This document shows positions 35,411 to 64,000 of a stretch of DNA of 64,000 nucleotides, piece by piece. The notes beneath the pieces are model-generated. The model searched no databases. It saw only the letters and a program-made list of their open reading frames with translations, and was not told the DNA's origin. The position numbers were made by a program, and so were the translations under genes. Each line of letters begins with the position of its first letter. The stretch's first letter is position 1. Source of the DNA: Pleodorina starrii (Eukaryota; Chlorophyta; Chlorophyceae; Chlamydomonadales; Volvocaceae); assembly GCA_030267565.1 (NCBI GenBank), contig BRXU01000039.1, positions 962,915 to 1,026,914 on the forward strand. The letters are read 5' to 3'.

Positions 35411-35450
35411 TAGGGTTTTAGGGTTATTTAGGGTTTTAGGGTTTTTAGGG
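35411..35450 (+). repeat. Interstitial telomere-like tract, unit 1
   Basis: Degenerate TTTTAGGG repeats (TAGGGTTTTAGGGTTATTTAG and on) following unique DNA directly. The G-rich strand reads to the right, as at a right-hand chromosome end. Confidence 0.85.
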
Positions 35451-35795
35451 AGTACTCATTGCGGGGGGTTTCGGCCACGGTTCTGCGCCTTCCGCGCCCC
35501 ACCCCGCACCGCACGCCGCCCTACCACCCTCTCCACTTGCGTAGCACCCCGAATAACCGCGGCGCGCGGGCGCCGGCCCGCATTGACCGGTCGCCGAGCC
35601 CCCCAAACAGCCGGGGCAGTGGGGGATGTGTGTGTGTGTGTGGCACTGCGTGCACTCATGTACAGGGGTGTCGTCGGCGGGCCCCCCCCCCCCGCCTTGC
35701 CCCACCCATATTGCGTGCCCCCAACTGCACCAAACACACACGCACAAACACGCACAAACACGCACAAACACGCACAATCACACAAACACGCACAG

Positions 35796-37717
35796 TTAAT
35801 CGCCCAGCTCGACGGCGCGCGGTGGGGGCGGTGCCGCAAAGGCCACAGCAAGCGGAACGGCTTCACGCTGCGGCCGGGCCGCCAGCCCCGGCAGCCACGC
35901 CGACTCTGCGGGCCCCGGCGAGGTGACGGGTTCACGGGCAGGCACACTCGCGCACTCCAGCAGCCACTCGTGCGCCGCCGTGGAGCGGGCGGCGTTAACC
36001 GACCTAAATCCCCACCGCAGGTGCAGCGGGTTGATGCATCGTGCGTTGTCACAAATGTGCATGGCTACGGCTTCCTTCTGCGTACCCTCGGCGGCTGCTG
36101 TCGTTGCGTGTTCGCGAGCATCCACATGCTTCCAGCCGCCGCCACCCCCGCCGCCGCCACCCCCGCCGACGCCACCCCCGCCGCCGCCACCCCCGCCGAC
36201 GCCACCACCACCCCCGCCACCCCCGCCGCCACCACCCCCGCCACCAGCACCAGCGCCCGAACCCGCCGCCGCCGCCACTGCCGCCACCGCCGCCGCCGTG
36301 GGCGCAAGCGGCACGCGCACACAGCCCCCCTCGGGTGCACCACCCACCGCCCACAGCGAGGCCCGGTGCGCCCACACCCATGCCTCCGCCGCCCCCTCCG
36401 CATCCACCTGCACCGCCCCGCCACGCCTAACCCGCAGCGCAGTGTGGCCGCCGCGGAGGACGACGTCAGCACCGCGTTCGGCCCGGGGAACGCGGGCGGG
36501 TGTAAAGTAGCTGTGGCCGGCACGCTGCGCGGCCTTCACCGCCAACTCCATCGCCACCCGACGCTGCCGCAGCTGCACCGCGTCGTCCTGCTCTTTCTCC
36601 GTCGCCGTCGCCGTCTCCATCGCCATCGCCGTCGCCGCCGCCGCCTCCACCACGTCGTCCGCCTTGCGCTTGAGAGGGTGGCGGTGGCAGGGGCGTCGGC
36701 CACCCGCCGTTGCATCGGCTATGACCTTCGCAGCCCGCCTCGCCGCCGCCCTGGGAGCAGTGCGCAGCCTGCCCGCCGTCGACGTCGCAGTAGTCGCCGG
36801 CGTCGCCGTCGCAGTCGCCGACATCGCCGCCGCCTCCTTCTCCACCGCCGCAGTCGCCGACGTCGCAGTCGCCACCGCCGCCGCCGCCACCGCCGCGTCC
36901 TCCTCCTCGTCCTCCTCCTCGTCCTCCTTCTCCTCCGCAGCAGGCGCCAGCGGCTCGAGGCAGGGTGACCGCAGCGGCGCGGCTTCGTCGACGGGCGGCT
37001 GCATCACGAGCAGCGCGTTTTCCGCCACGACCAGCGTGACGGTGCCGCCCGTGGCCTTGACCAGCCACAGCGCCGCGTGCAGGAAGGACGGCGCGTCGTC
37101 CAGCGAGACGCGGCGGCGCTTACTTGGCAGCGCCGCGCCCATGTCCGCCAGCAGGCGCACCGCTTGGGCGACAGCGTGGCGGGCGTGCGGCGTCGGCGGA
37201 GAAGGGCGAAGGCTACGGTGGAAGCAGCAGCAGGAGCGGCAGGAGCGGCAGCAGCGTTCGTGGCCGTAGCGGCCACCTCGGAGCTCTTGCAGCCAGTGGA
37301 CAGCGGTGCACACTGCTGCGCCGGACACACCGCTTGGCGAGAGCGCCGTCAACCCCGCCCGCCGCGGTGTCGGCTGCGACGGCGGGGACGGCCGCGGAGG
37401 CTGATGATGAGGTGGCTGCTGCTGATGAGGTGGCTGCTGCTGATGAGGTGGCTGCTGCGACGGCGACGCGAGGATGGGGATGCTGCTGCGGGGAGGGTGC
37501 TGCTGCTGGCCGCGGTGGTCACCACCATCATCACGGTGCCGCCGGCAGCGGTTGCCGGAACGCCCGCGAGCGCGCCCTTTGGGCGGCGAGGCAATCGCGT
37601 GCTTGGGCAGGAAGCGGCCGGCTGCTGCTGCTGCAGGCGAACCAAGCTGCAGCAGCGGCAGCTTTTGCGACGACGGCGTTTGCAAATTGGCGGAGGAGCG
37701 CCAGCAGCAGTCGTTTG

Positions 37718-37764
<47 letters not shown>

Positions 37765-37769
37765 GCCAT
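35796..37769 (-). CDS. His-Cys-box (His-Me finger) endonuclease-like protein, unit 1
   Basis: 657 residues without visible introns. ATG 37769 starts MAQ then polyGln coded by CAG repeats. It has basic patches near residues 215 (PSKRRRVSL) and 367 (PLKRKADD) that look like nuclear localisation signals, an acidic run at about 280, and a polyGly linker at about 503-548. The motif starting at His571 follows: HICDNARCINPLHLRWG, then Asn592. The spacing His, +2 Cys, +7 Cys, +12 His, +21 Asn equals that of the I-PpoI active-site/zinc loop (His98, Cys100, Cys105, His110, Asn119; known family). This predicts a metal-dependent DNA nuclease. The rest matches nothing I know. GC-rich, low-complexity sequence makes long chance frames likely, so support rests mainly on the motif and a frame kept in seven copies. 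It could be a domesticated or selfish endonuclease; activity is not shown. Confidence 0.62.
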
Positions 37770-37895
37770 GTCTGTCTCTGCGGCAAAGCTGTATGTGCGC
37801 CTGTTTTACTGTATCTGCTCTGCTGCTGCTGCCTTCCCGCCTGCCTGCCTGCCTGTCTGCGACGCACGAGACAAAAGCAAATCGTGCCCTCTCGC

Positions 37896-37972
<77 letters not shown>

Positions 37973-39009
37973 CGATGATGATGATGATGCCGCGCGCGCG
38001 ATCAAAAGTAAAGCAGCCGCCCGAGTTTGATAGCAGCAGCTACCGATCGAGCTATCTAGTAGTCAAATAAGCAAGCAGCCAAGTAGCAAGCAGCAGCAAT
38101 CATATATAGTATAAGATATATATATATCATGTGTTACTACTATTATTATTATGATAAGCGGTGGTGCTGTGCCGGTCGAGAGAATGTTTTGGGCAGGGGC
38201 AGGGCAGGGCGGGCGGTTGACTAAGCCGTTGGACTGGCTGGGCGCGCGAGGCCGCCGCCCAGCCAGCGGGGCGCAACGACCCAACCCACAAAAAAAACGA
38301 CACCATAGCAGAAACCCACCCGGCCATAATTTTTTTCAAGCTATTCATAATAACTCTGCCGAAGCAGATGCGCAAAAGGAATACTACGTCCAAAAGATCT
38401 GGGGTAGGACAGGCACGGAACGGCCCTGGGGCAGGGTGCCAGGCCGCCAACACCCCATTTAAAATGTGCGCCTAGTCATGCTGAAGGTGTCCTCCAGCGG
38501 GGTCTCGGGCTGAAACGTGGCGCCTGGTGAGATCTGGCGTGGGCACGCCTGGGTGTGCACGGCCCTTGATTGGCATCTTAACATTTTGCTGGCAGCCAGG
38601 CTTGTGCACAGCACGCGGATTAATTTTGGACATATGAATTGTGATATCCTGGATTTTATGGTAAAATTTGCGCAAATTTTGGTCCTGTGTGGGCCTCACG
38701 GCAATAATTTGTTTGAGGGCTCGGGATGGGTCCGGGCTCGCGAGGTCGTTTTTCTGGTGGTGCGCCGTACTGCGGAGGGGTGAGCAAACTTTTGGACTGT
38801 GCAGAAACGCTTTAATACGACAATAATATTACAACTTCTGTTATTACCTTTCTTTCTTGATAGTAACAATACTTAGCGAGGTTTAGTTTGGTACCGTAAG
38901 TTTCAATGACTGACGGCAACCTCGACTCTCCGCTGCGTCCACCTCTGCTTGAGCTGGGCCTTTTCCGTAGTGATCTTCTTCTCTTGATCAGTAGGTAGGT
39001 AACGACCAG
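37770..39009. other. Unit 1 spacer with microsatellites
   Basis: Upstream of the endonuclease ORF: a (GAT)n run of about 95 bp near 37897-37990, an AT-rich patch (CATATATAGTATAAGATATA) at about 38100-38150, and then about 850 bp of ordinary sequence. Small frames of 103 and 88 codons on the plus strand recur in every unit, but since the units are near-identical copies this is no evidence that they are genes. The same spacer occurs in every unit. Confidence 0.6.
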
Positions 39010-39138
39010 TTCCGGGAAGGTAACGTGGTGCACATTGCTCGGGGTGAGAGCGTGGCCTGCCCGGTGGGCCTTCTGGAGAGGTACCTGAAGCTGTCGGGCC
39101 TGCAGGCTAACCAGCCGCTTTTTCAGGGTTTTAACGGT
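39010..39138 (+). pseudogene. Tyrosine recombinase-like fragment, end of unit 1
   Basis: After an acceptor-like GACCAG, the plus strand reads FREGNVVHIARGESVACPVG then LLERYLKLSGLQANQPLF. This resembles the central part of DIRS/Crypton-type tyrosine recombinases (Q-x-R-x-G-x-x-V-x-I-A-R ... CPV-x-x-L-x-x-Y). The catalytic C-terminal His-x-x-Arg and Tyr are absent: the frame runs into telomere-like repeats within 30 codons. I treat it as a remnant of a mobile element. Confidence 0.45.
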
Positions 39139-39164
39139 CAAGCCGCCCGCGCCGGGAAGACCTC

Positions 39165-39205
39165 TAGGGTTTTAGGGTTATTTAGGGTTTTTAGGGTTTT
39201 TAGGG
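39165..39205 (+). repeat. Interstitial telomere-like tract, unit 2
   Basis: TTTTAGGG-type repeats with the GGGTTATTTAGGG variant shared with units 1 and 7. Confidence 0.85.
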
Positions 39206-39540: not shown

Positions 39541-41462
39541 TTAATCGCCCAGCTCGACGGCGCGCGGTGGGGGCGGTGCCGCAAAGGCCACAGCAAGCGG
39601 AACGGCTTCACGCTGCGGCCGGGCCGCCAGCCCCGGCAGCCACGCCGACTCTGCGGGCCCCGGCGAGGTGACGGGTTCACGGGCAGGCACACTCGCGCAC
39701 TCCAGCAGCCACTCGTGCGCCGCCGTGGAGCGGGCGGCGTTAACCGACCTAAATCCCCACCGCAGGTGCAGCGGGTTGATGCATCGTGCGTTGTCACAAA
39801 TGTGCATGGCTACGGCTTCCTTCTGCGTACCCTCGGCGGCTGCTGTCGTTGCGTGTTCGCGAGCATCCACATGCTTCCAGCCGCCGCCACCCCCGCCGCC
39901 GCCACCCCCGCCGACGCCACCCCCGCCGCCGCCACCCCCGCCGACGCCACCACCACCCCCGCCACCCCCGCCGCCACCACCCCCGCCACCAGCACCAGCG
40001 CCCGAACCCGCCGCCGCCGCCACTGCCGCCACCGCCGCCGCCGTGGGCGCAAGCGGCACGCGCACACAGCCCCCCTCGGGTGCACCACCCACCGCCCACA
40101 GCGAGGCCCGGTGCGCCCACACCCATGCCTCCGCCGCCCCCTCCGCATCCACCTGCACCGCCCCGCCACGCCTAACCCGCAGCGCAGTGTGGCCGCCGCG
40201 GAGGACGACGTCAGCACCGCGTTCGGCCCGGGGAACGCGGGCGGGTGTAAAGTAGCTGTGGCCGGCACGCTGCGCGGCCTTCACCGCCAACTCCATCGCC
40301 ACCCGACGCTGCCGCAGCTGCACCGCGTCGTCCTGCTCTTTCTCCGTCGCCGTCGCCGTCTCCATCGCCATCGCCGTCGCCGCCGCCGCCTCCACCACGT
40401 CGTCCGCCTTGCGCTTGAGAGGGTGGCGGTGGCAGGGGCGTCGGCCACCCGCCGTTGCATCGGCTATGACCTTCGCAGCCCGCCTCGCCGCCGCCCTGGG
40501 AGCAGTGCGCAGCCTGCCCGCCGTCGACGTCGCAGTAGTCGCCGGCGTCGCCGTCGCAGTCGCCGACATCGCCGCCGCCTCCTTCTCCACCGCCGCAGTC
40601 GCCGACGTCGCAGTCGCCACCGCCGCCGCCGCCACCGCCGCGTCCTCCTCCTCGTCCTCCTCCTCGTCCTCCTTCTCCTCCGCAGCAGGCGCCAGCGGCT
40701 CGAGGCAGGGTGACCGCAGCGGCGCGGCTTCGTCGACGGGCGGCTGCATCACGAGCAGCGCGTTTTCCGCCACGACCAGCGTGACGGTGCCGCCCGTGGC
40801 CTTGACCAGCCACAGCGCCGCGTGCAGGAAGGACGGCGCGTCGTCCAGCGAGACGCGGCGGCGCTTACTTGGCAGCGCCGCGCCCATGTCCGCCAGCAGG
40901 CGCACCGCTTGGGCGACAGCGTGGCGGGCGTGCGGCGTCGGCGGAGAAGGGCGAAGGCTACGGTGGAAGCAGCAGCAGGAGCGGCAGGAGCGGCAGCAGC
41001 GTTCGTGGCCGTAGCGGCCACCTCGGAGCTCTTGCAGCCAGTGGACAGCGGTGCACACTGCTGCGCCGGACACACCGCTTGGCGAGAGCGCCGTCAACCC
41101 CGCCCGCCGCGGTGTCGGCTGCGACGGCGGGGACGGCCGCGGAGGCTGATGATGAGGTGGCTGCTGCTGATGAGGTGGCTGCTGCTGATGAGGTGGCTGC
41201 TGCGACGGCGACGCGAGGATGGGGATGCTGCTGCGGGGAGGGTGCTGCTGCTGGCCGCGGTGGTCACCACCATCATCACGGTGCCGCCGGCAGCGGTTGC
41301 CGGAACGCCCGCGAGCGCGCCCTTTGGGCGGCGAGGCAATCGCGTGCTTGGGCAGGAAGCGGCCGGCTGCTGCTGCTGCAGGCGAACCAAGCTGCAGCAG
41401 CGGCAGCTTTTGCGACGACGGCGTTTGCAAATTGGCGGAGGAGCGCCAGCAGCAGTCGTTTG

Positions 41463-41509
<47 letters not shown>

Positions 41510-41514
41510 GCCAT
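39541..41514 (-). CDS. His-Cys-box endonuclease-like protein, unit 2
   Basis: 657 residues, apparently the same protein as in unit 1. Confidence 0.6.
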
Positions 41515-41640: not shown

Positions 41641-41711
<71 letters not shown>

Positions 41712-42748
41712 CGATGATGATGATGATGCCGCGCGCGCGATCAAAAGTAAAGCAGCCGCCCGAGTTTGATAGCAGCAGCTACCGATCGAGCTATCTAGTA
41801 GTCAAATAAGCAAGCAGCCAAGTAGCAAGCAGCAGCAATCATATATAGTATAAGATATATATATATCATGTGTTACTACTATTATTATTATGATAAGCGG
41901 TGGTGCTGTGCCGGTCGAGAGAATGTTTTGGGCAGGGGCAGGGCAGGGCGGGCGGTTGACTAAGCCGTTGGACTGGCTGGGCGCGCGAGGCCGCCGCCCA
42001 GCCAGCGGGGCGCAACGACCCAACCCACAAAAAAAACGACACCATAGCAGAAACCCACCCGGCCATAATTTTTTTCAAGCTATTCATAATAACTCTGCCG
42101 AAGCAGATGCGCAAAAGGAATACTACGTCCAAAAGATCTGGGGTAGGACAGGCACGGAACGGCCCTGGGGCAGGGTGCCAGGCCGCCAACACCCCATTTA
42201 AAATGTGCGCCTAGTCATGCTGAAGGTGTCCTCCAGCGGGGTCTCGGGCTGAAACGTGGCGCCTGGTGAGATCTGGCGTGGGCACGCCTGGGTGTGCACG
42301 GCCCTTGATTGGCATCTTAACATTTTGCTGGCAGCCAGGCTTGTGCACAGCACGCGGATTAATTTTGGACATATGAATTGTGATATCCTGGATTTTATGG
42401 TAAAATTTGCGCAAATTTTGGTCCTGTGTGGGCCTCACGGCAATAATTTGTTTGAGGGCTCGGGATGGGTCCGGGCTCGCGAGGTCGTTTTTCTGGTGGT
42501 GCGCCGTACTGCGGAGGGGTGAGCAAACTTTTGGACTGTGCAGAAACGCTTTAATACGACAATAATATTACAACTTCTGTTATTACCTTTCTTTCTTGAT
42601 AGTAACAATACTTAGCGAGGTTTAGTTTGGTACCGTAAGTTTCAATGACTGACGGCAACCTCGACTCTCCGCTGCGTCCACCTCTGCTTGAGCTGGGCCT
42701 TTTCCGTAGTGATCTTCTTCTCTTGATCAGTAGGTAGGTAACGACCAG

Positions 42749-42877
42749 TTCCGGGAAGGTAACGTGGTGCACATTGCTCGGGGTGAGAGCGTGGCCTGCC
42801 CGGTGGGCCTTCTGGAGAGGTACCTGAAGCTGTCGGGCCTGCAGGCTAACCAGCCGCTTTTTCAGGGTTTTAACGGT
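42749..42877 (+). pseudogene. Tyrosine recombinase-like fragment, end of unit 2
   Basis: Same fragment as at 39010-39138. Confidence 0.45.
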
Positions 42878-42903
42878 CAAGCCGCCCGCGCCGGGAAGAC
42901 CTC

Positions 42904-42944
42904 TAGGGTTTTAGGGTTTTTAGGGTTTTTTAGGGTTTTTAGGG
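42904..42944 (+). repeat. Interstitial telomere-like tract, unit 3
   Basis: TTTTAGGG-type repeats with the GGGTTTTTTAGGG variant of units 3-6 and 8. Confidence 0.85.
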
Positions 42945-43288: not shown

Positions 43289-45210
43289 TTAATCGCCCAG
43301 CTCGACGGCGCGCGGTGGGGGCGGTGCCGCAAAGGCCACAGCAAGCGGAACGGCTTCACGCTGCGGCCGGGCCGCCAGCCCCGGCAGCCACGCCGACTCT
43401 GCGGGCCCCGGCGAGGTGACGGGTTCACGGGCAGGCACACTCGCGCACTCCAGCAGCCACTCGTGCGCCGCCGTGGAGCGGGCGGCGTTAACCGACCTAA
43501 ATCCCCACCGCAGGTGCAGCGGGTTGATGCATCGTGCGTTGTCACAAATGTGCATGGCTACGGCTTCCTTCTGCGTACCCTCGGCGGCTGCTGTCGTTGC
43601 GTGTTCGCGAGCATCCACATGCTTCCAGCCGCCGCCACCCCCGCCGCCGCCACCCCCGCCGACGCCACCCCCGCCGCCGCCACCCCCGCCGACGCCACCA
43701 CCACCCCCGCCACCCCCGCCGCCACCACCCCCGCCACCAGCACCAGCGCCCGAACCCGCCGCCGCCGCCACTGCCGCCACCGCCGCCGCCGTGGGCGCAA
43801 GCGGCACGCGCACACAGCCCCCCTCGGGTGCACCACCCACCGCCCACAGCGAGGCCCGGTGCGCCCACACCCATGCCTCCGCCGCCCCCTCCGCATCCAC
43901 CTGCACCGCCCCGCCACGCCTAACCCGCAGCGCAGTGTGGCCGCCGCGGAGGACGACGTCAGCACCGCGTTCGGCCCGGGGAACGCGGGCGGGTGTAAAG
44001 TAGCTGTGGCCGGCACGCTGCGCGGCCTTCACCGCCAACTCCATCGCCACCCGACGCTGCCGCAGCTGCACCGCGTCGTCCTGCTCTTTCTCCGTCGCCG
44101 TCGCCGTCTCCATCGCCGTCGCCGTCGCCGCCGCCGCCTCCACCACGTCGTCCGCCTTGCGCTTGAGAGGGTGGCGGTGGCAGGGGCGTCGGCCACCCGC
44201 CGTTGCATCGGCTATGACCTTCGCAGCCCGCCTCGCCGCCGCCCTGGGAGCAGTGCACAGCCTGCCCGCCGTCGACGTCGCAGTAGTCGCCGGCGTCGCC
44301 GTCGCAGTCGCCGACGTCGCCGCCGCCTCCTTCTCCACCGCCGCAGTCGCCGACGTCGCTGTCGCCACCGCCGCCGCCGCCACCGCCGCGTCCTCCTCCT
44401 CGTCCTCCTCCTCGTCCTCCTTCTCCTCCGCAGCAGGCGCCAGCGGCTCGAGGCAGGGTGACCGCAGCGGCGCGGCTTCGTCGACGGGCGGCTGCATCAC
44501 GAGCAGCGCGTTTTCCGCCACGACCAGCGTGACGGTGCCGCCCGTGGCCTTGACCAGCCACAGCGCCGCGTGCAGGAAGGACGGCGCGTCGTCCAGCGAG
44601 ACGCGGCGGCGCTTACTTGGCAGCGCCGCGCCCATGTCCGCCAGCAGGCGCACCGCTTGGGCGACAGCGTGGCGGGCGTGCGGCGTCGGCGGAGAAGGGT
44701 GAAGGCTACGGTGGAAGCAGCAGCAGGAGCGGCAGGAGCGGCAGCAGCGTTCGTGGCCGTAGCGGCCACCTCGGAGCTCTTGCAGCCAGTGGACAGCGGT
44801 GCACACTGCTGCGCCGGACACACCGCTTGGCGAGAGCGCCGTCAACCCCGCCCGCCGCGGTGTCGGCTGCGACGGCGGGGACGGCCGCGGAGGCTGATGA
44901 TGAGGTGGCTGCTGCTGATGAGGTGGCTGCTGCTGATGAGGTGGCTGCTGCGACGGCGACGCGAGGATGGGGATGCTGCTGCGGGGAGGGTGCTGCTGCT
45001 GGCCGCGGTGGTCACCACCATCATCACGGTGCCGCCGGCAGCGGTTGCCGGAACGCCCGCGAGCGCGCCCTTTGGGCGGCGAGGCAATCGCGTGCTTGGG
45101 CAGGAAGCGACCGGCTGCTGCTGCTGCAGGCGAACCAAGCTGCAGCAGCGGCAGCTTTTGCGACGACGGCGTTTGCAAATTGGCGGAGGAGCGCCAGCAG
45201 CAGTCGTTTG

Positions 45211-45254
<44 letters not shown>

Positions 45255-45259
45255 GCCAT
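43289..45259 (-). CDS. His-Cys-box endonuclease-like protein, unit 3
   Basis: 656 residues; the polyGln run is one residue shorter. Substitutions include Arg to Cys (GRLCTAPR), Met to Thr (ATATAMETA) and HPSP for RPSP. Several of these changes are shared with unit 8. The (GAT)n next to it is the shortest of the array, about 10 repeats. Confidence 0.6.
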
Positions 45260-45416: not shown

Positions 45417-46436
45417 CCGCGCGCGCGATCAAAAGTAAAGCAGCCGCCCGAGTTTGATAGCAGCAGCTACCGATCGAGCTATCTAGTAGTCAAATAAGCA
45501 AGCAGCCAAGTAGCAAGCAGCAGCAATCATATATAGTATAAGATATATATATATCATGTGTTACTACTATTATTATTATGATAAGCGGTGGTGCTGTGCC
45601 GGTCGAGAGAATGTTTTGGGCAGGGGCAGGGCAGGGCGGGCGGTTGACTAAGCCGTTGGACTGGCTGGGCGCGCGAGGCCGCCGCCCAGCCAGCGGGGCG
45701 CAACGACCCAACCCACAAAAAAAACGACACCATAGCAGAAACCCACCCGGCCATAATTTTTTTCAAGCTATTCATAATAACTCTGCCGAAGCAGATGCGC
45801 AAAAGGAATACTACGTCCAAAAGATCTGGGGTAGGACAGGCACGGAACGGCCCTGGGGCAGGGTGCCAGGCCGCCAACACCCCATTTAAAATGTGCGCCT
45901 AGTCATGCTGAAGGTGTCCTCCAGCGGGGTCTCGGGCTGAAACGTGGCGCCTGGTGAGATCTGGCGTGGGCACGCCTGGGTGTGCACGGCCCTTGATTGG
46001 CATCTTAACATTTTGCTGGCAGCCAGGCTTGTGCACAGCACGCGGATTAATTTTGGACATATGAATTGTGATATCCTGGATTTTATGGTAAAATTTGCGC
46101 AAATTTTGGTCCTGTGTGGGCCTCACGGCAATAATTTGTTTGAGGGCTCGGGATGGGTCCGGGCTCGCGAGGTCGTTTTTCTGGTGGTGCGCCGTACTGC
46201 GGAGGGGTGAGCAAACTTTTGGACTGTGCAGAAACGCTTTAATACGACAATAATATTACAACTTCTGTTATTACCTTTCTTTCTTGATAGTAACAATACT
46301 TAGCGAGGTTTAGTTTGGTACCGTAAGTTTCAATGACTGACGGCAACCTCGACTCTCCGCTGCGTCCACCTCTGCTTGAGCTGGGCCTTTTCCGTAGTGA
46401 TCTTCTTCTCTTGATCAGTAGGTAGGTAACGACCAG

Positions 46437-46565
46437 TTCCGGGAAGGTAACGTGGTGCACATTGCTCGGGGTGAGAGCGTGGCCTGCCCGGTGGGCCTTC
46501 TGGAGAGGTACCTGAAGCTGTCGGGCCTGCAGGCTAACCAGCCGCTTTTTCAGGGTTTTAACGGT
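46437..46565 (+). pseudogene. Tyrosine recombinase-like fragment, end of unit 3
   Basis: Same fragment as at 39010-39138. Confidence 0.45.
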
Positions 46566-46591
46566 CAAGCCGCCCGCGCCGGGAAGACCTC

Positions 46592-46632
46592 TAGGGTTTT
46601 AGGGTTTTTAGGGTTTTTTAGGGTTTTTAGGG
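46592..46632 (+). repeat. Interstitial telomere-like tract, unit 4
   Basis: TTTTAGGG-type repeats, same form as unit 3. Confidence 0.85.
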
Positions 46633-48890: not shown

Positions 48891-48946
<56 letters not shown>

Positions 48947-48951
48947 GCCAT
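46969..48951 (-). CDS. His-Cys-box endonuclease-like protein, unit 4
   Basis: 660 residues, with the longest polyGln of the array. The His-to-Tyr change in PHARYAVAQ is shared with units 5 and 6. Confidence 0.6.
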
Positions 48952-49154: not shown

Positions 49155-50191
49155 CGATGATGATGATGATGCCGCGCGCGCGATCAAAAGTAAAGCAGCC
49201 GCCCGAGTTTGATAGCAGCAGCTACCGATCGAGCTATCTAGTAGTCAAATAAGCAAGCAGCCAAGTAGCAAGCAGCAGCAATCATATATAGTATAAGATA
49301 TATATATATCATGTGTTACTACTATTATTATTATGATAAGCGGTGGTGCTGTGCCGGTCGAGAGAATGTTTTGGGCAGGGGCAGGGCAGGGCGGGCGGTT
49401 GACTAAGCCGTTGGACTGGCTGGGCGCGCGAGGCCGCCGCCCAGCCAGCGGGGCGCAACGACCCAACCCACAAAAAAAACGACACCATAGCAGAAACCCA
49501 CCCGGCCATAATTTTTTTCAAGCTATTCATAATAACTCTGCCGAAGCAGATGCGCAAAAGGAATACTACGTCCAAAAGATCTGGGGTAGGACAGGCACGG
49601 AACGGCCCTGGGGCAGGGTGCCAGGCCGCCAACACCCCATTTAAAATGTGCGCCTAGTCATGCTGAAGGTGTCCTCCAGCGGGGTCTCGGGCTGAAACGT
49701 GGCGCCTGGTGAGATCTGGCGTGGGCACGCCTGGGTGTGCACGGCCCTTGATTGGCATCTTAACATTTTGCTGGCAGCCAGGCTTGTGCACAGCACGCGG
49801 ATTAATTTTGGACATATGAATTGTGATATCCTGGATTTTATGGTAAAATTTGCGCAAATTTTGGTCCTGTGTGGGCCTCACGGCAATAATTTGTTTGAGG
49901 GCTCGGGATGGGTCCGGGCTCGCGAGGTCGTTTTTCTGGTGGTGCGCCGTACTGCGGAGGGGTGAGCAAACTTTTGGACTGTGCAGAAACGCTTTAATAC
50001 GACAATAATATTACAACTTCTGTTATTACCTTTCTTTCTTGATAGTAACAATACTTAGCGAGGTTTAGTTTGGTACCGTAAGTTTCAATGACTGACGGCA
50101 ACCTCGACTCTCCGCTGCGTCCACCTCTGCTTGAGCTGGGCCTTTTCCGTAGTGATCTTCTTCTCTTGATCAGTAGGTAGGTAACGACCAG

Positions 50192-50320
50192 TTCCGGGAA
50201 GGTAACGTGGTGCACATTGCTCGGGGTGAGAGCGTGGCCTGCCCGGTGGGCCTTCTGGAGAGGTACCTGAAGCTGTCGGGCCTGCAGGCTAACCAGCCGC
50301 TTTTTCAGGGTTTTAACGGT
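50192..50320 (+). pseudogene. Tyrosine recombinase-like fragment, end of unit 4
   Basis: Same fragment as at 39010-39138. Confidence 0.45.
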
Positions 50321-50346
50321 CAAGCCGCCCGCGCCGGGAAGACCTC

Positions 50347-50387
50347 TAGGGTTTTAGGGTTTTTAGGGTTTTTTAGGGTTTTTAGGG
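50347..50387 (+). repeat. Interstitial telomere-like tract, unit 5
   Basis: TTTTAGGG-type repeats, same form as unit 3. Confidence 0.85.
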
Positions 50388-52644: not shown

Positions 52645-52697
<53 letters not shown>

Positions 52698-52702
52698 GCC
52701 AT
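50723..52702 (-). CDS. His-Cys-box endonuclease-like protein, unit 5
   Basis: 659 residues; same class as units 4 and 6. Confidence 0.6.
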
Positions 52703-52905: not shown

Positions 52906-53942
52906 CGATGATGATGATGATGCCGCGCGCGCGATCAAAAGTAAAGCAGCCGCCCGAGTTTGATAGCAGCAGCTACCGATCGAGCTATCTAGTAGTCAAA
53001 TAAGCAAGCAGCCAAGTAGCAAGCAGCAGCAATCATATATAGTATAAGATATATATATATCATGTGTTACTACTATTATTATTATGATAAGCGGTGGTGC
53101 TGTGCCGGTCGAGAGAATGTTTTGGGCAGGGGCAGGGCAGGGCGGGCGGTTGACTAAGCCGTTGGACTGGCTGGGCGCGCGAGGCCGCCGCCCAGCCAGC
53201 GGGGCGCAACGACCCAACCCACAAAAAAAACGACACCATAGCAGAAACCCACCCGGCCATAATTTTTTTCAAGCTATTCATAATAACTCTGCCGAAGCAG
53301 ATGCGCAAAAGGAATACTACGTCCAAAAGATCTGGGGTAGGACAGGCACGGAACGGCCCTGGGGCAGGGTGCCAGGCCGCCAACACCCCATTTAAAATGT
53401 GCGCCTAGTCATGCTGAAGGTGTCCTCCAGCGGGGTCTCGGGCTGAAACGTGGCGCCTGGTGAGATCTGGCGTGGGCACGCCTGGGTGTGCACGGCCCTT
53501 GATTGGCATCTTAACATTTTGCTGGCAGCCAGGCTTGTGCACAGCACGCGGATTAATTTTGGACATATGAATTGTGATATCCTGGATTTTATGGTAAAAT
53601 TTGCGCAAATTTTGGTCCTGTGTGGGCCTCACGGCAATAATTTGTTTGAGGGCTCGGGATGGGTCCGGGCTCGCGAGGTCGTTTTTCTGGTGGTGCGCCG
53701 TACTGCGGAGGGGTGAGCAAACTTTTGGACTGTGCAGAAACGCTTTAATACGACAATAATATTACAACTTCTGTTATTACCTTTCTTTCTTGATAGTAAC
53801 AATACTTAGCGAGGTTTAGTTTGGTACCGTAAGTTTCAATGACTGACGGCAACCTCGACTCTCCGCTGCGTCCACCTCTGCTTGAGCTGGGCCTTTTCCG
53901 TAGTGATCTTCTTCTCTTGATCAGTAGGTAGGTAACGACCAG

Positions 53943-54071
53943 TTCCGGGAAGGTAACGTGGTGCACATTGCTCGGGGTGAGAGCGTGGCCTGCCCGGTGG
54001 GCCTTCTGGAGAGGTACCTGAAGCTGTCGGGCCTGCAGGCTAACCAGCCGCTTTTTCAGGGTTTTAACGGT
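53943..54071 (+). pseudogene. Tyrosine recombinase-like fragment, end of unit 5
   Basis: Same fragment as at 39010-39138. Confidence 0.45.
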
Positions 54072-54097
54072 CAAGCCGCCCGCGCCGGGAAGACCTC

Positions 54098-54138
54098 TAG
54101 GGTTTTAGGGTTTTTAGGGTTTTTTAGGGTTTTTAGGG
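54098..54138 (+). repeat. Interstitial telomere-like tract, unit 6
   Basis: TTTTAGGG-type repeats, same form as unit 3. Confidence 0.85.
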
Positions 54139-54474: not shown

Positions 54475-56396
54475 TTAATCGCCCAGCTCGACGGCGCGCG
54501 GTGGGGGCGGTGCCGCAAAGGCCACAGCAAGCGGAACGGCTTCACGCTGCGGCCGGGCCGCCAGCCCCGGCAGCCACGCCGACTCTGCGGGCCCCGGCGA
54601 GGTGACGGGTTCACGGGCAGGCACACTCGCGCACTCCAGCAGCCACTCGTGCGCCGCCGTGGAGCGGGCGGCGTTAACCGACCTAAATCCCCACCGCAGG
54701 TGCAGCGGGTTGATGCATCGTGCGTTGTCACAAATGTGCATGGCTACGGCTTCCTTCTGCGTACCCTCGGCGGCTGCTGTCGTTGCGTGTTCGCGAGCAT
54801 CCACATGCTTCCAGCCGCCGCCACCCCCGCCGCCGCCACCCCCGCCGACGCCACCCCCGCCGCCGCCACCCCCGCCGACGCCACCACCACCCCCGCCACC
54901 CCCGCCGCCACCACCCCCGCCACCAGCACCAGCGCCCGAACCCGCCGCCGCCGCCACTGCCGCCACCGCCGCCGCCGTGGGCGCAAGCGGCACGCGCACA
55001 CAGCCCCCCTCGGGTGCACCACCCACCGCCCACAGCGAGGCCCGGTGCGCCCACACCCATGCCTCCGCCGCCCCCTCCGCATCCACCTGCACCGCCCCGC
55101 CACGCCTAACCCGCAGCGCAGTGTGGCCGCCGCGGAGGACGACGTCAGCACCGCGTTCGGCCCGGGGAACGCGGGCGGGTGTAAAGTAGCTGTGGCCGGC
55201 ACGCTGCGCGGCCTTCACCGCCAACTCCATCGCCACCCGACGCTGCCGCAGCTGCACCGCGTCGTCCTGCTCTTTCTCCGTCGCCGTCGCCGTCTCCATC
55301 GCCATCGCCGTCGCCGCCGCCGCCTCCACCACGTCGTCCGCCTTGCGCTTGAGAGGGTGGCGGTGGCAGGGGCGTCGGCCACCCGCCGTTGCATCGGCTA
55401 TGACCTTCGCAGCCCGCCTCGCCGCCGCCCTGGGAGCAGTGCGCAGCCTGCCCGCCGTCGACGTCGCAGTAGTCGCCGGCGTCGCCGTCGCAGTCGCCGA
55501 CATCGCCGCCGCCTCCTTCTCCACCGCCGCAGTCGCCGACGTCGCAGTCGCCACCGCCGCCGCCGCCACCGCCGCGTCCTCCTCCTCGTCCTCCTCCTCG
55601 TCCTCCTTCTCCTCCGCAGCAGGCGCCAGCGGCTCGAGGCAGGGTGACCGCAGCGGCGCGGCTTCGTCGACGGGCGGCTGCATCACGAGCAGCGCGTTTT
55701 CCGCCACGACCAGCGTGACGGTGCCGCCCGTGGCCTTGACCAGCCACAGCGCCGCGTGCAGGAAGGACGGCGCGTCGTCCAGCGAGACGCGGCGGCGCTT
55801 ACTTGGCAGCGCCGCGCCCATGTCCGCCAGCAGGCGCACCGCTTGGGCGACAGCGTAGCGGGCGTGCGGCGTCGGCGGAGAAGGGCGAAGGCTACGGTGG
55901 AAGCAGCAGCAGGAGCGGCAGGAGCGGCAGCAGCGTTCGTGGCCGTAGCGGCCACCTCGGAGCTCTTGCAGCCAGTGGACAGCGGTGCACACTGCTGCGC
56001 CGGACACACCGCTTGGCGAGAGCGCCGTCAACCCCGCCCGCCGCGGTGTCGGCTGCGACGGCGGGGACGGCCGCGGAGGCTGATGATGAGGTGGCTGCTG
56101 CTGATGAGGTGGCTGCTGCTGATGAGGTGGCTGCTGCGACGGCGACGCGAGGATGGGGATGCTGCTGCGGGGAGGGTGCTGCTGCTGGCCGCGGTGGTCA
56201 CCACCATCATCACGGTGCCGCCGGCAGCGGTTGCCGGAACGCCCGCGAGCGCGCCCTTTGGGCGGCGAGGCAATCGCGTGCTTGGGCAGGAAGCGGCCGG
56301 CTGCTGCTGCTGCAGGCGAACCAAGCTGCAGCAGCGGCAGCTTTTGCGACGACGGCGTTTGCAAATTGGCGGAGGAGCGCCAGCAGCAGTCGTTTG

Positions 56397-56449
<53 letters not shown>

Positions 56450-56454
56450 GCCAT
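54475..56454 (-). CDS. His-Cys-box endonuclease-like protein, unit 6
   Basis: 659 residues; same class as units 4 and 5. The (GAT)n upstream is the longest of the array. Confidence 0.6.
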
Positions 56455-56672: not shown

Positions 56673-57709
56673 CGATGATGATGATGATGCCGCGCGCGCG
56701 ATCAAAAGTAAAGCAGCCGCCCGAGTTTGATAGCAGCAGCTACCGATCGAGCTATCTAGTAGTCAAATAAGCAAGCAGCCAAGTAGCAAGCAGCAGCAAT
56801 CATATATAGTATAAGATATATATATATCATGTGTTACTACTATTATTATTATGATAAGCGGTGGTGCTGTGCCGGTCGAGAGAATGTTTTGGGCAGGGGC
56901 AGGGCAGGGCGGGCGGTTGACTAAGCCGTTGGACTGGCTGGGCGCGCGAGGCCGCCGCCCAGCCAGCGGGGCGCAACGACCCAACCCACAAAAAAAACGA
57001 CACCATAGCAGAAACCCACCCGGCCATAATTTTTTTCAAGCTATTCATAATAACTCTGCCGAAGCAGATGCGCAAAAGGAATACTACGTCCAAAAGATCT
57101 GGGGTAGGACAGGCACGGAACGGCCCTGGGGCAGGGTGCCAGGCCGCCAACACCCCATTTAAAATGTGCGCCTAGTCATGCTGAAGGTGTCCTCCAGCGG
57201 GGTCTCGGGCTGAAACGTGGCGCCTGGTGAGATCTGGCGTGGGCACGCCTGGGTGTGCACGGCCCTTGATTGGCATCTTAACATTTTGCTGGCAGCCAGG
57301 CTTGTGCACAGCACGCGGATTAATTTTGGACATATGAATTGTGATATCCTGGATTTTATGGTAAAATTTGCGCAAATTTTGGTCCTGTGTGGGCCTCACG
57401 GCAATAATTTGTTTGAGGGCTCGGGATGGGTCCGGGCTCGCGAGGTCGTTTTTCTGGTGGTGCGCCGTACTGCGGAGGGGTGAGCAAACTTTTGGACTGT
57501 GCAGAAACGCTTTAATACGACAATAATATTACAACTTCTGTTATTACCTTTCTTTCTTGATAGTAACAATACTTAGCGAGGTTTAGTTTGGTACCGTAAG
57601 TTTCAATGACTGACGGCAACCTCGACTCTCCGCTGCGTCCACCTCTGCTTGAGCTGGGCCTTTTCCGTAGTGATCTTCTTCTCTTGATCAGTAGGTAGGT
57701 AACGACCAG

Positions 57710-57838
57710 TTCCGGGAAGGTAACGTGGTGCACATTGCTCGGGGTGAGAGCGTGGCCTGCCCGGTGGGCCTTCTGGAGAGGTACCTGAAGCTGTCGGGCC
57801 TGCAGGCTAACCAGCCGCTTTTTCAGGGTTTTAACGGT
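57710..57838 (+). pseudogene. Tyrosine recombinase-like fragment, end of unit 6
   Basis: Same fragment as at 39010-39138. Confidence 0.45.
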
Positions 57839-57864
57839 CAAGCCGCCCGCGCCGGGAAGACCTC

Positions 57865-57905
57865 TAGGGTTTTAGGGTTATTTAGGGTTTTTAGGGTTTT
57901 TAGGG
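57865..57905 (+). repeat. Interstitial telomere-like tract, unit 7
   Basis: Has the GGGTTATTTAGGG variant of units 1 and 2. Confidence 0.85.
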
Positions 57906-58243: not shown

Positions 58244-60165
58244 TTAATCGCCCAGCTCGACGGCGCGCGGTGGGGGCGGTGCCGCAAAGGCCACAGCAAG
58301 CGGAACGGCTTCACGCTGCGGCCGGGCCGCCAGCCCCGGCAGCCACGCCGACTCTGCGGGCCCCGGCGAGGTGACGGGTTCACGGGCAGGCACACTCGCG
58401 CACTCCAGCAGCCACTCGTGCGCCGCCGTGGAGCGGGCGGCGTTAACCGACCTAAATCCCCACCGCAGGTGCAGCGGGTTGATGCATCGTGCGTTGTCAC
58501 AAATGTGCATGGCTACGGCTTCCTTCTGCGTACCCTCGGCGGCTGCTGTCGTTGCGTGTTCGCGAGCATCCACATGCTTCCAGCCGCCGCCACCCCCCCC
58601 GCCGCCCCCCCCCCCGACGCCACCCCCGCCGCCGCCACCCCCGCCGACGCCACCACCACCCCCGCCACCCCCGCCGCCACCACCCCCGCCACCAGCACCA
58701 GCGCCCGAACCCGCCGCCGCCGCCACTGCCGCCACCGCCGCCGCCGTGGGCGCAAGCGGCACGCGCACACAGCCCCCCTCGGGTGCACCACCCACCGCCC
58801 ACAGCGAGGCCCGGTGCGCCCACACCCATGCCTCCGCCGCCCCCTCCGCATCCACCTGCACCGCCCCGCCACGCCTAACCCGCAGCGCAGTGTGGCCGCC
58901 GCGGAGGACGACGTCAGCACCGCGTTCGGCCCGGGGAACGCGGGCGGGTGTAAAGTAGCTGTGGCCGGCACGCTGCGCGGCCTTCACCGCCAACTCCATC
59001 GCCACCCGACGCTGCCGCAGCTGCACCGCGTCGTCCTGCTCTTTCTCCGTCGCCGTCGCCGTCTCCATCGCCATCGCCGTCGCCGCCGCCGCCTCCACCA
59101 CGTCGTCCGCCTTGCGCTTGAGAGGGTGGCGGTGGCAGGGGCGTCGGCCACCCGCCGTTGCATCGGCTATGACCTTCGCAGCCCGCCTCGCCGCCGCCCT
59201 GGGAGCAGTGCGCAGCCTGCCCGCCGTCGACGTCGCAGTAGTCGCCGGCGTCGCCGTCGCAGTCGCCGACATCGCCGCCGCCTCCTTCTCCACCGCCGCA
59301 GTCGCCGACGTCGCAGTCGCCACCGCCGCCGCCGCCACCGCCGCGTCCTCCTCCTCGTCCTCCTCCTCGTCCTCCTTCTCCTCCGCAGCAGGCGCCAGCG
59401 GCTCGAGGCAGGGTGACCGCAGCGGCGCGGCTTCGTCGACGGGCGGCTGCATCACGAGCAGCGCGTTTTCCGCCACGACCAGCGTGACGGTGCCGCCCGT
59501 GGCCTTGACCAGCCACAGCGCCGCGTGCAGGAAGGACGGCGCGTCGTCCAGCGAGACGCGGCGGCGCTTACTTGGCAGCGCCGCGCCCATGTCCGCCAGC
59601 AGGCGCACCGCTTGGGCGACAGCGTGGCGGGCGTGCGGCGTCGGCGGAGAAGGGCGAAGGCTACGGTGGAAGCAGCAGCAGGAGCGGCAGGAGCGGCAGC
59701 AGCGTTCGTGGCCGTAGCGGCCACCTCGGAGCTCTTGCAGCCAGTGGACAGCGGTGCACACTGCTGCGCCGGACACACCGCTTGGCGAGAGCGCCGTCAA
59801 CCCCGCCCGCCGCGGTGTCGGCTGCGACGGCGGGGACGGCCGCGGAGGCTGATGATGAGGTGGCTGCTGCTGATGAGGTGGCTGCTGCTGATGAGGTGGC
59901 TGCTGCGACGGCGACGCGAGGATGGGGATGCTGCTGCGGGGAGGGTGCTGCTGCTGGCCGCGGTGGTCACCACCATCATCACGGTGCCGCCGGCAGCGGT
60001 TGCCGGAACGCCCGCGAGCGCGCCCTTTGGGCGGCGAGGCAATCGCGTGCTTGGGCAGGAAGCGGCCGGCTGCTGCTGCTGCAGGCGAACCAAGCTGCAG
60101 CAGCGGCAGCTTTTGCGACGACGGCGTTTGCAAATTGGCGGAGGAGCGCCAGCAGCAGTCGTTTG

Positions 60166-60218
<53 letters not shown>

Positions 60219-60223
60219 GCCAT
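58244..60223 (-). CDS. His-Cys-box endonuclease-like protein, unit 7
   Basis: 659 residues. Nucleotide changes in the polyGly-coding stretch (runs of C near 58595-58615) keep the frame. The 5' spacer variants match unit 1. Confidence 0.58.
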
Positions 60224-60349
60224 GTCTGTCTCTGCGGCAAAGCTGTATGTGCGCCTGTTTTACTGTATCTGCTCTGCTGCTGCTGCCTTCCCGCCTGCCT
60301 GCCTGCCTGTCTGCGACGCACGAGACAAAAGCAAATCGTGCCCTCTCGC

Positions 60350-60414
<65 letters not shown>

Positions 60415-61451
60415 CGATGATGATGATGATGCCGCGCGCGCGATCAAAAGTAAAGCAGCCGCCCGAGTTTGATAGCAGCAGCTACCGATCGAGCTATCTA
60501 GTAGTCAAATAAGCAAGCAGCCAAGTAGCAAGCAGCAGCAATCATATATAGTATAAGATATATATATATCATGTGTTACTACTATTATTATTATGATAAG
60601 CGGTGGTGCTGTGCCGGTCGAGAGAATGTTTTGGGCAGGGGCAGGGCAGGGCGGGCGGTTGACTAAGCCGTTGGACTGGCTGGGCGCGCGAGGCCGCCGC
60701 CCAGCCAGCGGGGCGCAACGACCAAACCAAAAAAAAAAACGACACCATAGCAGAAACCCACCCGGCCATAATTTTTTTCAAGCTATTCATAATAACTCTG
60801 CCGAAGCAGATGCGCAAAAGGAATACTACGTCCAAAAGATCTGGGGTAGGACAGGCACGGAACGGCCCTGGGGCAGGGTGCCAGGCCGCCAACACCCCAT
60901 TTAAAATGTGCGCCTAGTCATGCTGAAGGTGTCCTCCAGCGGGGTCTCGGGCTGAAACGTGGCGCCTGGTGAGATCTGGCGTGGGCACGCCTGGGTGTGC
61001 AAGGCCCTTGATTGGCATCTTAACATTTTGCTGGCAGCCAGGCTTGTGCACAGCACGCGGATTAATTTTGGACATATGAATTGTGATATCCTGGATTTTA
61101 TGGTAAAATTTGCGCAAATTTTGGTCCTGTGTGGGCCTCACGGCAATAATTTGTTTGAGGGCTCGGGATGGGTCCGGGCTCGCGAGGTCGTTTTTCTGGT
61201 GGTGCGCCGTACTGCGGAGGGGTGAGCAAACTTTTGGACTGTGCAGAAACGCTTTAATACGACAATAATATTACAACTTCTGTTATTACCTTTCTTTCTT
61301 GATAGTAACAATACTTAGCGAGGTTTAGTTTGGTACCGTAAGTTTCAATGACTGACGGCAACCTCGACTCTCCGCTGCGTCCACCTCTGCTTGAGCTGGG
61401 CCTTTTCCGTAGTGATCTTCTTCTCTTGATCAGTAGGTAGGTAACGACCAG

Positions 61452-61580
61452 TTCCGGGAAGGTAACGTGGTGCACATTGCTCGGGGTGAGAGCGTGGCCT
61501 GCCCGGTGGGCCTTCTGGAGAGGTACCTGAAGCTGTCGGGCCTGCAGGCTAACCAGCCGCTTTTTCAGGGTTTTAACGGT
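61452..61580 (+). pseudogene. Tyrosine recombinase-like fragment, end of unit 7
   Basis: Same fragment as at 39010-39138. A one-base deletion follows about 15 bases later (GCCGGAAG for GCCGGGAAG). Confidence 0.45.
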
Positions 61581-61605
61581 CAAGCCGCCCGCGCCGGAAG
61601 ACCTC

Positions 61606-61645
61606 TAGGGTTTTAGGGTTTTTAGGGTTTTTTAGGGTTTTAGGG
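61606..61645 (+). repeat. Interstitial telomere-like tract, unit 8
   Basis: TTTTAGGG-type repeats, one T shorter in the last repeat than in unit 3. Confidence 0.85.
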
Positions 61646-61988
61646 AGTACTCATTGCGGGGGGTTTCGGCCACGGTTCTGCGCCTTCCGCACCCCACCCC
61701 GCACCGCACGCGCCCTACCACCCTCTCCACTTGTGTAGCACCCCGAATAACCGCGGCGCGCGGGCGCCGGCCCGCATTGACCGGTCGCCGAGCCCCCCAA
61801 ACAGCCGGGGCAGTGGGGGATGTGTGTGTGTGTGGCACTGCGTGCACTCATGTACAGGGGTGTCGTCGGCGGGCCCCCCCCCCCCCGCCTTGCCCCACCC
61901 ATATTGAGTGCCCCCAACTGCACCGTACACACACGCACAAACACGCACAAACATGCACAAACACGCACAATCACACAAACACGCACAG

Positions 61989-63973
61989 TTAATCGCCCAG
62001 CTCGACGGCGCGCGGTGGGGGCGGTGCCGCAAAGGCCACAGCAAGCGGAACGGCTTCACGCTGCGGCCGGGCCGCCAGCCCCGGCAGCCACGCCGACTCT
62101 GCGGGCCCCGGCGAGGTGACGGGTTCACGGGCAGGCACACTCGCGCACTCCAGCAGCCACTCGTGCGCCGCCGTGGAGCGGGCGGCGTTAACCGACCTAA
62201 ATCCCCACCGCAGGTGCAGCGGGTTGATGCATCGTGCGTTGTCACAAATGTGCATGGCTACGGCTTCCTTCTGCGTACCCTCGGCGGCTGCTGTCGTTGC
62301 GTGTTCGCGAGCATCCACATGCTTCCAGCCGCCGCCCCCCCCCCCCCCGCCCCCCCCCCCGCCCCCCCCCCCCCCGCCGCCACCCCCGCCGACGCCACCA
62401 CCACCCCCGCCACCCCCGCCGCCACCACCCCCGCCACCAGCACCAGCGCCCGAACCCGCCGCCGCCGCCACTGCCGCCACCGCCGCCGCCGTGGGCGCAA
62501 GCGGCACGCGCACACAGCCCCCCTCGGGTGCACCACCCACCGCCCACAGCGAGGCCCGGTGCGCCCACACCCATGCCTCCGCCGCCCCCTCCGCATCCAC
62601 CTGCACCGCCCCGCCACGCCTAACCCGCAGCGCAGTGTGGCCGCCGCGGAGGACGACGTCAGCACCGCGTTCGGCCCGGGGAACGCGGGCGGGTGTAAAG
62701 TAGCTGTGGCCGGCACGCTGCGCGGCCTTCACCGCCAACTCCATCGCCACCCGACGCTGCCGCAGCTGCACCGCGTCGTCCTGCTCTTTCTCCGTCGCCG
62801 TCGCCGTCTCCATCGCCGTCGCCGTCGCGCCGCCGCCTCCACCACGTCGTCCGCCTTGCGCTTGAGAGGGTGGCGGTGGCAGGGGCGTCGGCCACCCGCC
62901 GTTGCATCGGCTATGACCTTCGCAGCCCGCCTCGCCGCCGCCCTGGGAGCAGTGCACAGCCTGCCCGCCGTCGACGTCGCAGTAGTCGCCGGCGTCGCCG
63001 TCCGCAGTCGCCGACGTCGCCGCCGCCTCCTTCTCCCACCGCCGCAGTCGCCGACGTCGCTGTCGCCACCGCCGCCGCCGCCACCGCCGCGTCCTCCTCC
63101 TCGTCCTCCTCCTCGTCCTCCTTCTCCTCCGCAGCAGGCGCCAGCGGCTCGAGGCAGGGTGACCGCAGCGGCGCGGCTTCGTCGACGGGCGGCTGCATCA
63201 CGAGCAGCGCGTTTTCCGCCACGACCAGCGTGACGGTGGCCGCCCGTGGCCTTGACCAGCCACAGCGCCGCGTGCAGGAAGGACGGCGCGTCGTCCAGCG
63301 AGACGCGGCGGCGCTTACTTGGCAGCGCCGCGCCCATGTCCGCCAGCAGGCGCACCGCTTGGGCGACAGCGTGGCGGGCGTGCGGCGTCGGCGGAGAAGG
63401 GTGAAGGCTACGGTGGAAGCAGCAGCAGGAGCGGCAGGAGCGGCAGCAGCGTTCGTGGCCGTAGCGGCCACCTCGGAGCTCTTGCAGCCAGTGGACAGCG
63501 GTGCACACTGCTTGCGCCGGACACACCGCTGGCGAGAGCGCCGTCAACCCCGCCCGCCGCGGTGTCGGCTGCGACGGCCGGGACGGCCGCGGAGGCTGAT
63601 GATGAGGTGGCTGCTGCTGATGAGGTGGCTGCTGCTGATGAGGTGGCTGCTGCGACGGCGACGCGAGGATGGGGATGCTGCTGCGGGGAGGGTGCTGCTG
63701 CTGGCCGCGGTGGTCACCACCATTCATCACAGGTGCCAGCCGGCAGCGGTTGCCGGAACGGCCCGCGAGCGCGCCCTTTGGGCGGCGAGGCAAATCGCGT
63801 GCTTGGGCAGGAAGCGACCCGGGGGACTGCTGCTGCTGCACGGCGAACCAAGCTGCAGCAGCGGCAGCTTTTTGCGACGACGGCGTTGCAAATTGGCGGA
63901 GGAGCGCCAGCAGCAGTCGTTTGTCTGCTGCTCGCTGCTCGCTTGCTGCTGCTGCTGCTGCTGCTCGCGCCAT
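61989..63973 (-). pseudogene. His-Cys-box endonuclease-like ORF, unit 8, with many frameshifts
   Basis: Aligns with the ORF of unit 3 and shares its substitutions, but carries many one-base indels. Examples are a C lost near 62828, a C gained near 63002 and another near 63036, a G gained near 63238, and at least eight more between 63510 and 63960. The C-terminal part, with the His-Cys motif, is still open from 62957 down to 61989. Indels at homopolymers that increase towards the window edge suggest unpolished sequence rather than true decay. Coordinates of the 5' end are approximate. Confidence 0.6.
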
Positions 63974-64000
63974 GTCTGTCTCTGCGGCAAAGCTGTATGT

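Follow-up and report, generated by a model that had tools for sequence, protein, structure and literature searches.

The DNA analyzed here, a window of 64,000 nucleotides at the right edge of a contig of the green alga Pleodorina starrii (C39:962915-1026914, the right edge being the end of contig C39, of 1,026,914 bases), ends in a tandem array of eight units. Each pairs a short telomere-type tract with a block, called A, that encodes a long open reading frame (ORF), ORF A, with a nuclease-like domain. Elsewhere in the assembly (136,057,477 bases in 95 contigs), A and a second subtelomeric block, E3, are joined through similar tracts to many different acceptor sequences. We propose, with a probability of about 55%, that such blocks are captured by broken chromosome ends healed with telomere repeats, through recombination or copying mediated by the tracts, and that one copy was then amplified in tandem. 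In the available part of its description, the bisexual strain NIES-4479 of P. starrii is given 95 contigs and 136.1 Mbp, from PacBio and Illumina data merged with quickmerge and gap-filled (PMC10256686). One ORF of the assembly matches the database protein PLESTB_001979200 [Pleodorina starrii]. Positions are called subtelomeric from their distance to contig ends, most of which carry no telomere.

The tandem array is real. It covers 35411..64000 (plus strand) by repeat and sequence comparison, and its units run head to tail. Each opens with a 40-41-bp tract of the TTTTAGGG type on the plus strand, at 35411..35450 (unit 1, with C39-specific DNA joined on its left), 39165..39205, 42904..42944, 46592..46632, 50347..50387, 54098..54138, 57865..57905, and 61606..61645 (unit 8). 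Units 1 to 7 measure 3754, 3739, 3688, 3755, 3751, 3767, and 3741 bp and are 99.3-100% identical to one another; unit 8, cut at 2395 bp by the contig end, is 98.4-99.1% identical to them. Eight head-to-tail units of about 3.7 kb, each with a telomere-type tract, had been described in an earlier note made from this sequence, and they are borne out at 3.69-3.77 kb, the last one cut. A unit consists of a ~3.59-kb element and a ~163-bp linker, the latter lying on the plus strand at 39000..39162, 42739..42901, 46427..46589, 50182..50344, 53933..54095, 57700..57862, and 61442..61603, between successive units. The same note gave every unit an ORF of 657-660 codons. This is right for seven, whose intact ORFs of 656-660 amino acids (aa) are all on the minus strand, at 35796..37769 (657 aa), 39541..41514 (657 aa), 43289..45259 (656 aa), 46969..48951 (660 aa), 50723..52702 (659 aa), 54475..56454 (659 aa), and 58244..60223 (659 aa). 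It does not extend to unit 8, which is damaged or poorly read and whose longest listed ORF, of 414 aa (62729..63973, minus strand), lies partly in another frame and has no Pfam match. The divergence of unit 8 and its frameshift fit a poor consensus at the contig edge. Since ORF A is on the minus strand, its 3' end faces the tract, ~345 bp away.

Evidence for capture comes from the junctions, where we examined the sequence upstream of 13 copies of A and of 19 copies of E3. E3 first came to light on C23, where it is the acceptor of an A copy. Its first 161 bp are 99-100% identical across 19 matches. The two blocks share one junction geometry, in which an acceptor is followed by a short telomere-type tract and then by a fixed block end. 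The tract is present at 13/13 A junctions. The A end is AGTACTCATTGC after TAGGG, the exceptions being C76 (TATACTCATTGC) and C9:41k, where the last repeat is TTGGG; E3 copies have TATACTCAACTG after TTAGG. Clustering of the flanks gave 12 distinct acceptors for A (13 junctions, C13 having the same one twice) and 15 for E3 (19 junctions). Two of them are common to both blocks, so there are 25 acceptors in all. One shared acceptor carries A on C76 and E3 at C48:522k, the other carries A at C5:91k and E3 at C5:47k, C42:20k, and C9:18k, and tract lengths differ in both cases. The A acceptors on C9 and C42 are minisatellites that are ~83% alike. By eye, with no motif search run, the 25 have nothing evident in common except the telomere repeat. 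Tract lengths go from 5 to over 100 bp, and in the stretches examined we saw no acceptor sequence reappear past the element.

The block ends also share a short sequence. The pattern GGTTTT(N0-1)AGG(N0-3)TACTCA has 42 matches in the 136-Mb assembly, against 1 for a reversed control, and 42/42 are A or E3 ends located within ~105 kb of a contig end. TACTCA beside the tract is thus common to both blocks, and the bases that follow it differ between them by eye. The A junction contains an 8-bp palindrome, GAGTACTC, and the E3 junction the 6-bp GTATAC.

Some acceptors are themselves interrupted sequences. The linker is a piece of a dispersed repeat: for the copy at 50182..50344, used as query, 40 matches were listed. 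Of these, 15 lie in the array itself, and the other 25, found elsewhere, are mostly 97-99% identical. In the array, GACCTC is directly followed by TAGGGTTTT. In four copies outside, it is followed by GGCGCTGG, without telomere repeat, and the cut site in these intact copies shows by eye no likeness to the element end. The linker has an open frame (VHIARGESVACPVGLLERYLKLSG...; window 50182-50344 and 25 other places) that is, we presume, reminiscent of a tyrosine recombinase. At C5:69k the acceptor is a minisatellite left mid-unit at GGGT, and at C83:71.7k it is the 3' end of an ORF of another kind, B (see below). On C23, E3 is reduced to a 206-bp piece, after which come 13 bp of tract and then A, and at C5:58k a 17-bp piece of E3 is followed by a tract and then by another E3. 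Such E3 remnants, the cut linker, and the cut acceptors are the traces expected from successive rounds of breakage, telomere addition, and capture. Solo A copies mostly continue past the point where the array unit stops, into pyrimidine-rich repeats (that on C76 departs ~30 bp beyond), which makes the array unit a piece of a longer block. Its closure on the linker involved about two filler bases.

The blocks also have a preferred orientation. On contigs of more than 200 kb, C5 excepted, the G-rich strand of the tract runs toward the nearer contig end at 8/8 A and 12/12 E3 sites, where the C39 array counts as one site, C9 and C13 as two each, and C76 and C83 are too short to judge. The array had been called terminal. 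It does stand at a contig end, but there is no telomere there, and contig C5 opens within this array too, likewise oriented, with nine units of which the first is partial. The arrays of C39 and C5 may be one array broken by the assembly.

What could ORF A contribute? Its C terminus matches the Pfam family zf-His_Me_endon (PF05551) with an E value of 1.5e-5 and 25.7 bits, below the curated cut-off of 27, and the stretch scores 27.2 in a genome-wide profile search. In unit 1, the match covers residues 562-602, which convert to 35964..36086 on the minus strand. A profile of six family members has I-PpoI as its nearest match in the PDB (E 2.2e-4). The nuclease motif suspected earlier withstands this profile check, and ORF A is, by sequence profile, a member of the His-Me finger family. 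The catalytic residues of I-PpoI are His98 and Asn119, and zinc is held by Cys100, Cys105, and His110 (roles taken in part from PMC9587614); all five positions are aligned in ORF A. Ser97 and Glu114, given as conserved within the I-PpoI group in the part of PMC9587614 available to us, are replaced in the alignment by Met and Gly. ORF A is intact in 22/24 copies examined (7/8 units of the window and 15/16 copies at other loci), and its N-terminal half is rich in simple repeats. When its domain is compared with an interior relative on C14, third positions account for 26/44 differences over 109 codons (p 4e-4 against one third), with dN 0.087 and dS 0.353. Past selection has acted on the His-Me domain. 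A chance ORF in GC-rich DNA was considered and is disfavored by the domain match and by this selection. Residues 550-660 have no match at E 0.01 among database proteins of 363-1155 aa, and searches for relatives in other species, one of which scored the 7989 candidates sharing most words, gave only P. starrii proteins. A scan of ORF A and of 9 further unit ORFs (at least 70 aa each) found no reverse transcriptase, helicase, or DDD/E transposase domain, and the Pfam matches of these 9 are all below cut-off. We infer that ORF A may be translated, and any DNA cutting by its product, a putative nuclease, would be a prediction from the profile matches.

ORF A is not alone, as three kinds of ORF (A, B, and C) have the PF05551 domain. 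B has open frames of 484-515 aa in most copies, and its annotated 378-aa form matches PF05551 with E 6.4e-4. C is a single gene on C49 (E 5.6e-9), and 133 bp separate its stop codon from the terminal telomere repeat. Both are present in databases as hypothetical proteins, and C is identical (416/416) to PLESTM_001761400, a prefix that presumably denotes the male strain. In the assembly, 36/39 PF05551 matches are within ~105 kb of a contig end, many of them in tandem or duplicated copies; ~15% of the assembly lies within this distance, and contig ends are themselves repeat-rich. A match to B is found 5.7-11.6 kb distal to 10/19 E3 copies, and for the other nine none is listed within 12 kb. On C48 (471-495 kb and 546-567 kb), tandem units of ~1.25 kb match the last ~42 residues of C, and E3 comes after each of these arrays.

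Relatives of A also occur away from contig ends. That copies lie at contig ends only, named earlier as a check, holds for the long copies, all within ~105 kb of an end among the best 40 of 131 candidates scored and joined to a tract wherever the junction was examined. It does not hold for truncated, diverged relatives of the C-terminal half. These form a dispersed family of ~2.2 kb in chromosome interiors, which comprises the C-terminal half of ORF A, the 3' flank, and a short telomere-like stretch, and includes truncated and internally inverted derivatives. Over the 3' part, its identity to A is ~84-86%. Among 60 matches (best 150 of 177 candidates scored in the search for relatives), the longest open frame in an interior has 340 aa, and one interior relative is annotated as PLESTB_001160200. 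No full-length A copy was found in interiors among the best 40 of 131 and the best 150 of 177 scored. Given these dispersed relatives, A either has a mobile-element ancestry or is the parent of a mobile family, and the direction could be either way. In some copies (L059-L064, L045, and L046), the A-like 3' part is joined to another part that has, by eye, a possible ORF of ~131 aa, and in several of them the middle block is inverted.

We suggest the following sequence of events. A would be one of at least two subtelomeric blocks, with E3, that spread between chromosome ends by means of telomere tracts. A chromosome would break and the broken end would gain telomere repeats, presumably from telomerase. 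The new repeats could then recombine with a tract abutting A or E3 on another end, or be extended by copying from it, as in break-induced replication. Distal DNA would thereby be copied outward, giving any acceptor followed by a short variable tract and a fixed block end. The array of the window would be a secondary product, in which one linker-tract-A segment, cut in the GGTA repeat of A and rejoined to the linker, was multiplied by unequal exchange, rolling-circle copying, or break-induced copying, and was attached to C39 via a tract. By making breaks, perhaps where tract and element meet and the palindrome stands, the putative nuclease encoded by ORF A might make capture more frequent, a tentative addition to which we give less than even odds. 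More doubtful still is that A and E3 belong to a class of selfish elements of chromosome ends that do without reverse transcriptase. These would have TACTCA beside the tract as a common signal and a putative His-Me nuclease of their own that breaks DNA or opens the tract-element junction, and telomere healing and tract recombination would then seat the element on a new end.

Several observations weigh against capture through tracts. Some junctions have tracts of only 5-13 bp, which is little for homologous recombination. In the first ~97 kb of C5, polarity is reversed at the array and at two sites each of A and E3, and the A site at 104 kb is in the expected polarity, so that the arrangement is head to head (C5:1-104,300). 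Two chromosome ends may have been wrongly joined here or may be truly fused, and the head-to-head arrangements of C5 and C42 may both be misassembled. Perfect telomere arrays (at least 4 repeats) no more than 8 kb from a contig end were listed on C2, C17, C20, C33, C34, C42, C49, and C70, which leaves C42 as the sole A-bearing contig with such support. The interior relatives indicate that A-like sequence has moved by another route too. Finally, close copies of A have few changes, with dN about equal to dS. This last point would be expected if ORF A were an inert passenger, derived from the remnant of a mobile element and never made into a nuclease, on blocks that spread passively by subtelomere recombination. 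The dispersed, partly inverted, and truncated interior repeat, the lack of a match to the end of ORF A among database proteins of 363-1155 aa, and the simple repeats of its N-terminal half would also suit a passenger. We nevertheless find this unlikely, because the ORF is kept in 22/24 copies, its domain has been under selection, and three kinds of ORF with this domain lie near contig ends (36/39 PF05551 matches), many in tandem or duplicated.

A and E3 could instead be retroelements that attach to telomeres, like HeT-A or the Terminons, where a sense RNA ending in CCCUAAAA would pair with the G-rich 3' overhang and be reverse-transcribed by an enzyme provided in trans; transcripts would then extend from ORF A into CCCTAAAA. 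The polarity is just what such a route requires, with the 3' end of the ORF facing the tract, and it fits this explanation as well as it fits capture. The serial E3 remnants resemble 5' truncation, and the Terminon description, in the part of PMC6431247 available, fits to some extent. Yet none of the unit ORFs scanned has a reverse transcriptase, and that found close to the C23 copy is a member of a dispersed family. At the ends of A and E3, no hammerhead match was found up to E 1, and the other RNA motif matches look like low complexity, none of them credible or over its gathering score. Other ORFs and minisatellites take up a long stretch of E3, and the array units are uniform in length and carry a linker, unlike serial additions to an end. 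On balance, such an origin seems improbable to us. A role for the nuclease in classical homing appears more improbable still. There, the enzyme would cut a fixed site in subtelomeres that lack the unit, and repair would copy the unit in, much as the earlier note imagined when it proposed that the repeat spreads by cutting one kind of unit-less target. The profile match to I-PpoI and the past selection on the domain agree with it, and a precedent is provided by the available text on KolobokP, a mobile element that has tandem multimers and encodes a His-Me nuclease (PMC9587614). However, homing requires one recognized site, and there are 25 different acceptors with, by eye, the telomere repeat alone in common. 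Moreover, the cut site of the linker is unlike the element end in the four intact copies, and acceptors were not seen to resume beyond the element. The proposal of a single kind of target is thus not supported, and capture by healed ends remains the reading that we favor.

Other features of the window and of the assembly can be mentioned briefly. Just inside the array, window 24083-32539 (minus strand) has an ORF of 2818 aa with matches to reverse transcriptase, RNase H, integrase, and a PHD finger, and it resembles a long terminal repeat (LTR) retrotransposon. Window 6680-11412 has three tandem repeats with units of 66, 147, and 81 bp (12, 14.2, and 7.5 copies, respectively) within long frames that are partly open on both strands, one of which, of 1171 aa, has no Pfam match. 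Distal to the A copy of C23 (L079, C23:2,020,906-2,024,172) is an ORF of 1089 aa with a weak RVT_1 match and a start that we take to be GIY-YIG-like. It is a member of a dispersed retroelement family and is ruled out as a telomere-specific reverse transcriptase. At the left end of C42 (L051, C42:1400-2300), two telomere arrays stand head to head, G-rich and then C-rich. On the 10.3-Mb contig C1 (3,588,968-3,594,363 and 9,400,982-9,403,507), stretches of telomere repeat lie ~0.8-1.2 kb apart, like interstitial subtelomeric arrays.

Among the papers listed in our literature searches, we saw none that reports such elements from Pleodorina or another volvocine alga. The spread of subtelomeric repeats would be directly testable here in a culturable alga, of which three strains have been sequenced according to the part of the genome report available (PMC10256686). 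One genome would provide a natural record of broken ends that were given telomere repeats and then subtelomeric blocks, with 25 acceptors, two blocks, and exact junctions. If the putative nuclease were active, A would combine a Y'-like layout with the means to create its own openings, linking gene drives of the homing type with the maintenance of chromosome ends.

How does A compare with known systems? The Y' elements of yeast are tandem subtelomeric blocks between telomere-repeat tracts, with one polarity and a long helicase ORF. The Y'-like layout proposed earlier is confirmed, as A is subtelomeric, tandem, bordered by short tracts, of one polarity, and equipped with a long ORF; it differs in that the ORF encodes a His-Me finger, not a helicase, and in that two different blocks use the same acceptors. 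To our knowledge, the Sultan repeats of Chlamydomonas reinhardtii have no nuclease ORF, which sets them apart from A by description, not by sequence. As far as the available parts of their descriptions go, they and related repeats are likewise subtelomeric and tandem in a volvocine alga with (TTTTAGGG)n telomeres (PMC8226300, PMC10030371). Homing endonucleases with a His-Cys box, such as I-PpoI, share with ORF A the positions His98, Cys100, Cys105, His110, and Asn119, but ORF A is not in a group I intron, has Met and Gly for Ser97 and Glu114, and has no fixed insertion site. Accessory nuclease ORFs are reported, in the part of the source available, for the Terminons, telomere-associated Penelope-like elements of bdelloid rotifers (PMC6431247). 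What that part describes recalls A in the 3' end with a reverse-complement telomere repeat abutting a G-rich tract, in the head-to-tail arrays, and in the serial remnants, whereas the array-unit ORFs scanned lack a reverse transcriptase and the A and E3 ends lack a hammerhead ribozyme. The KolobokP DNA transposons, from what is available of PMC9587614, are mobile elements that combine an I-PpoI-like His-Me nuclease with tandem multimers, for which unequal crossover induced by cleavage was proposed. A has the same two traits, but the unit ORFs scanned lack a DDD/E transposase, A is subtelomeric, and its repeated border is the host telomere repeat. The terminal direct repeats of ~450/660 bp with inverted repeats described there for KolobokP were not seen, and solo A copies have a tract on one side only. 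Hence, the layout of A is Y'-like, its 3'-end structure Terminon-like, and its nuclease and multimers KolobokP-like, and from each of these families it departs in a defining feature that we tested.

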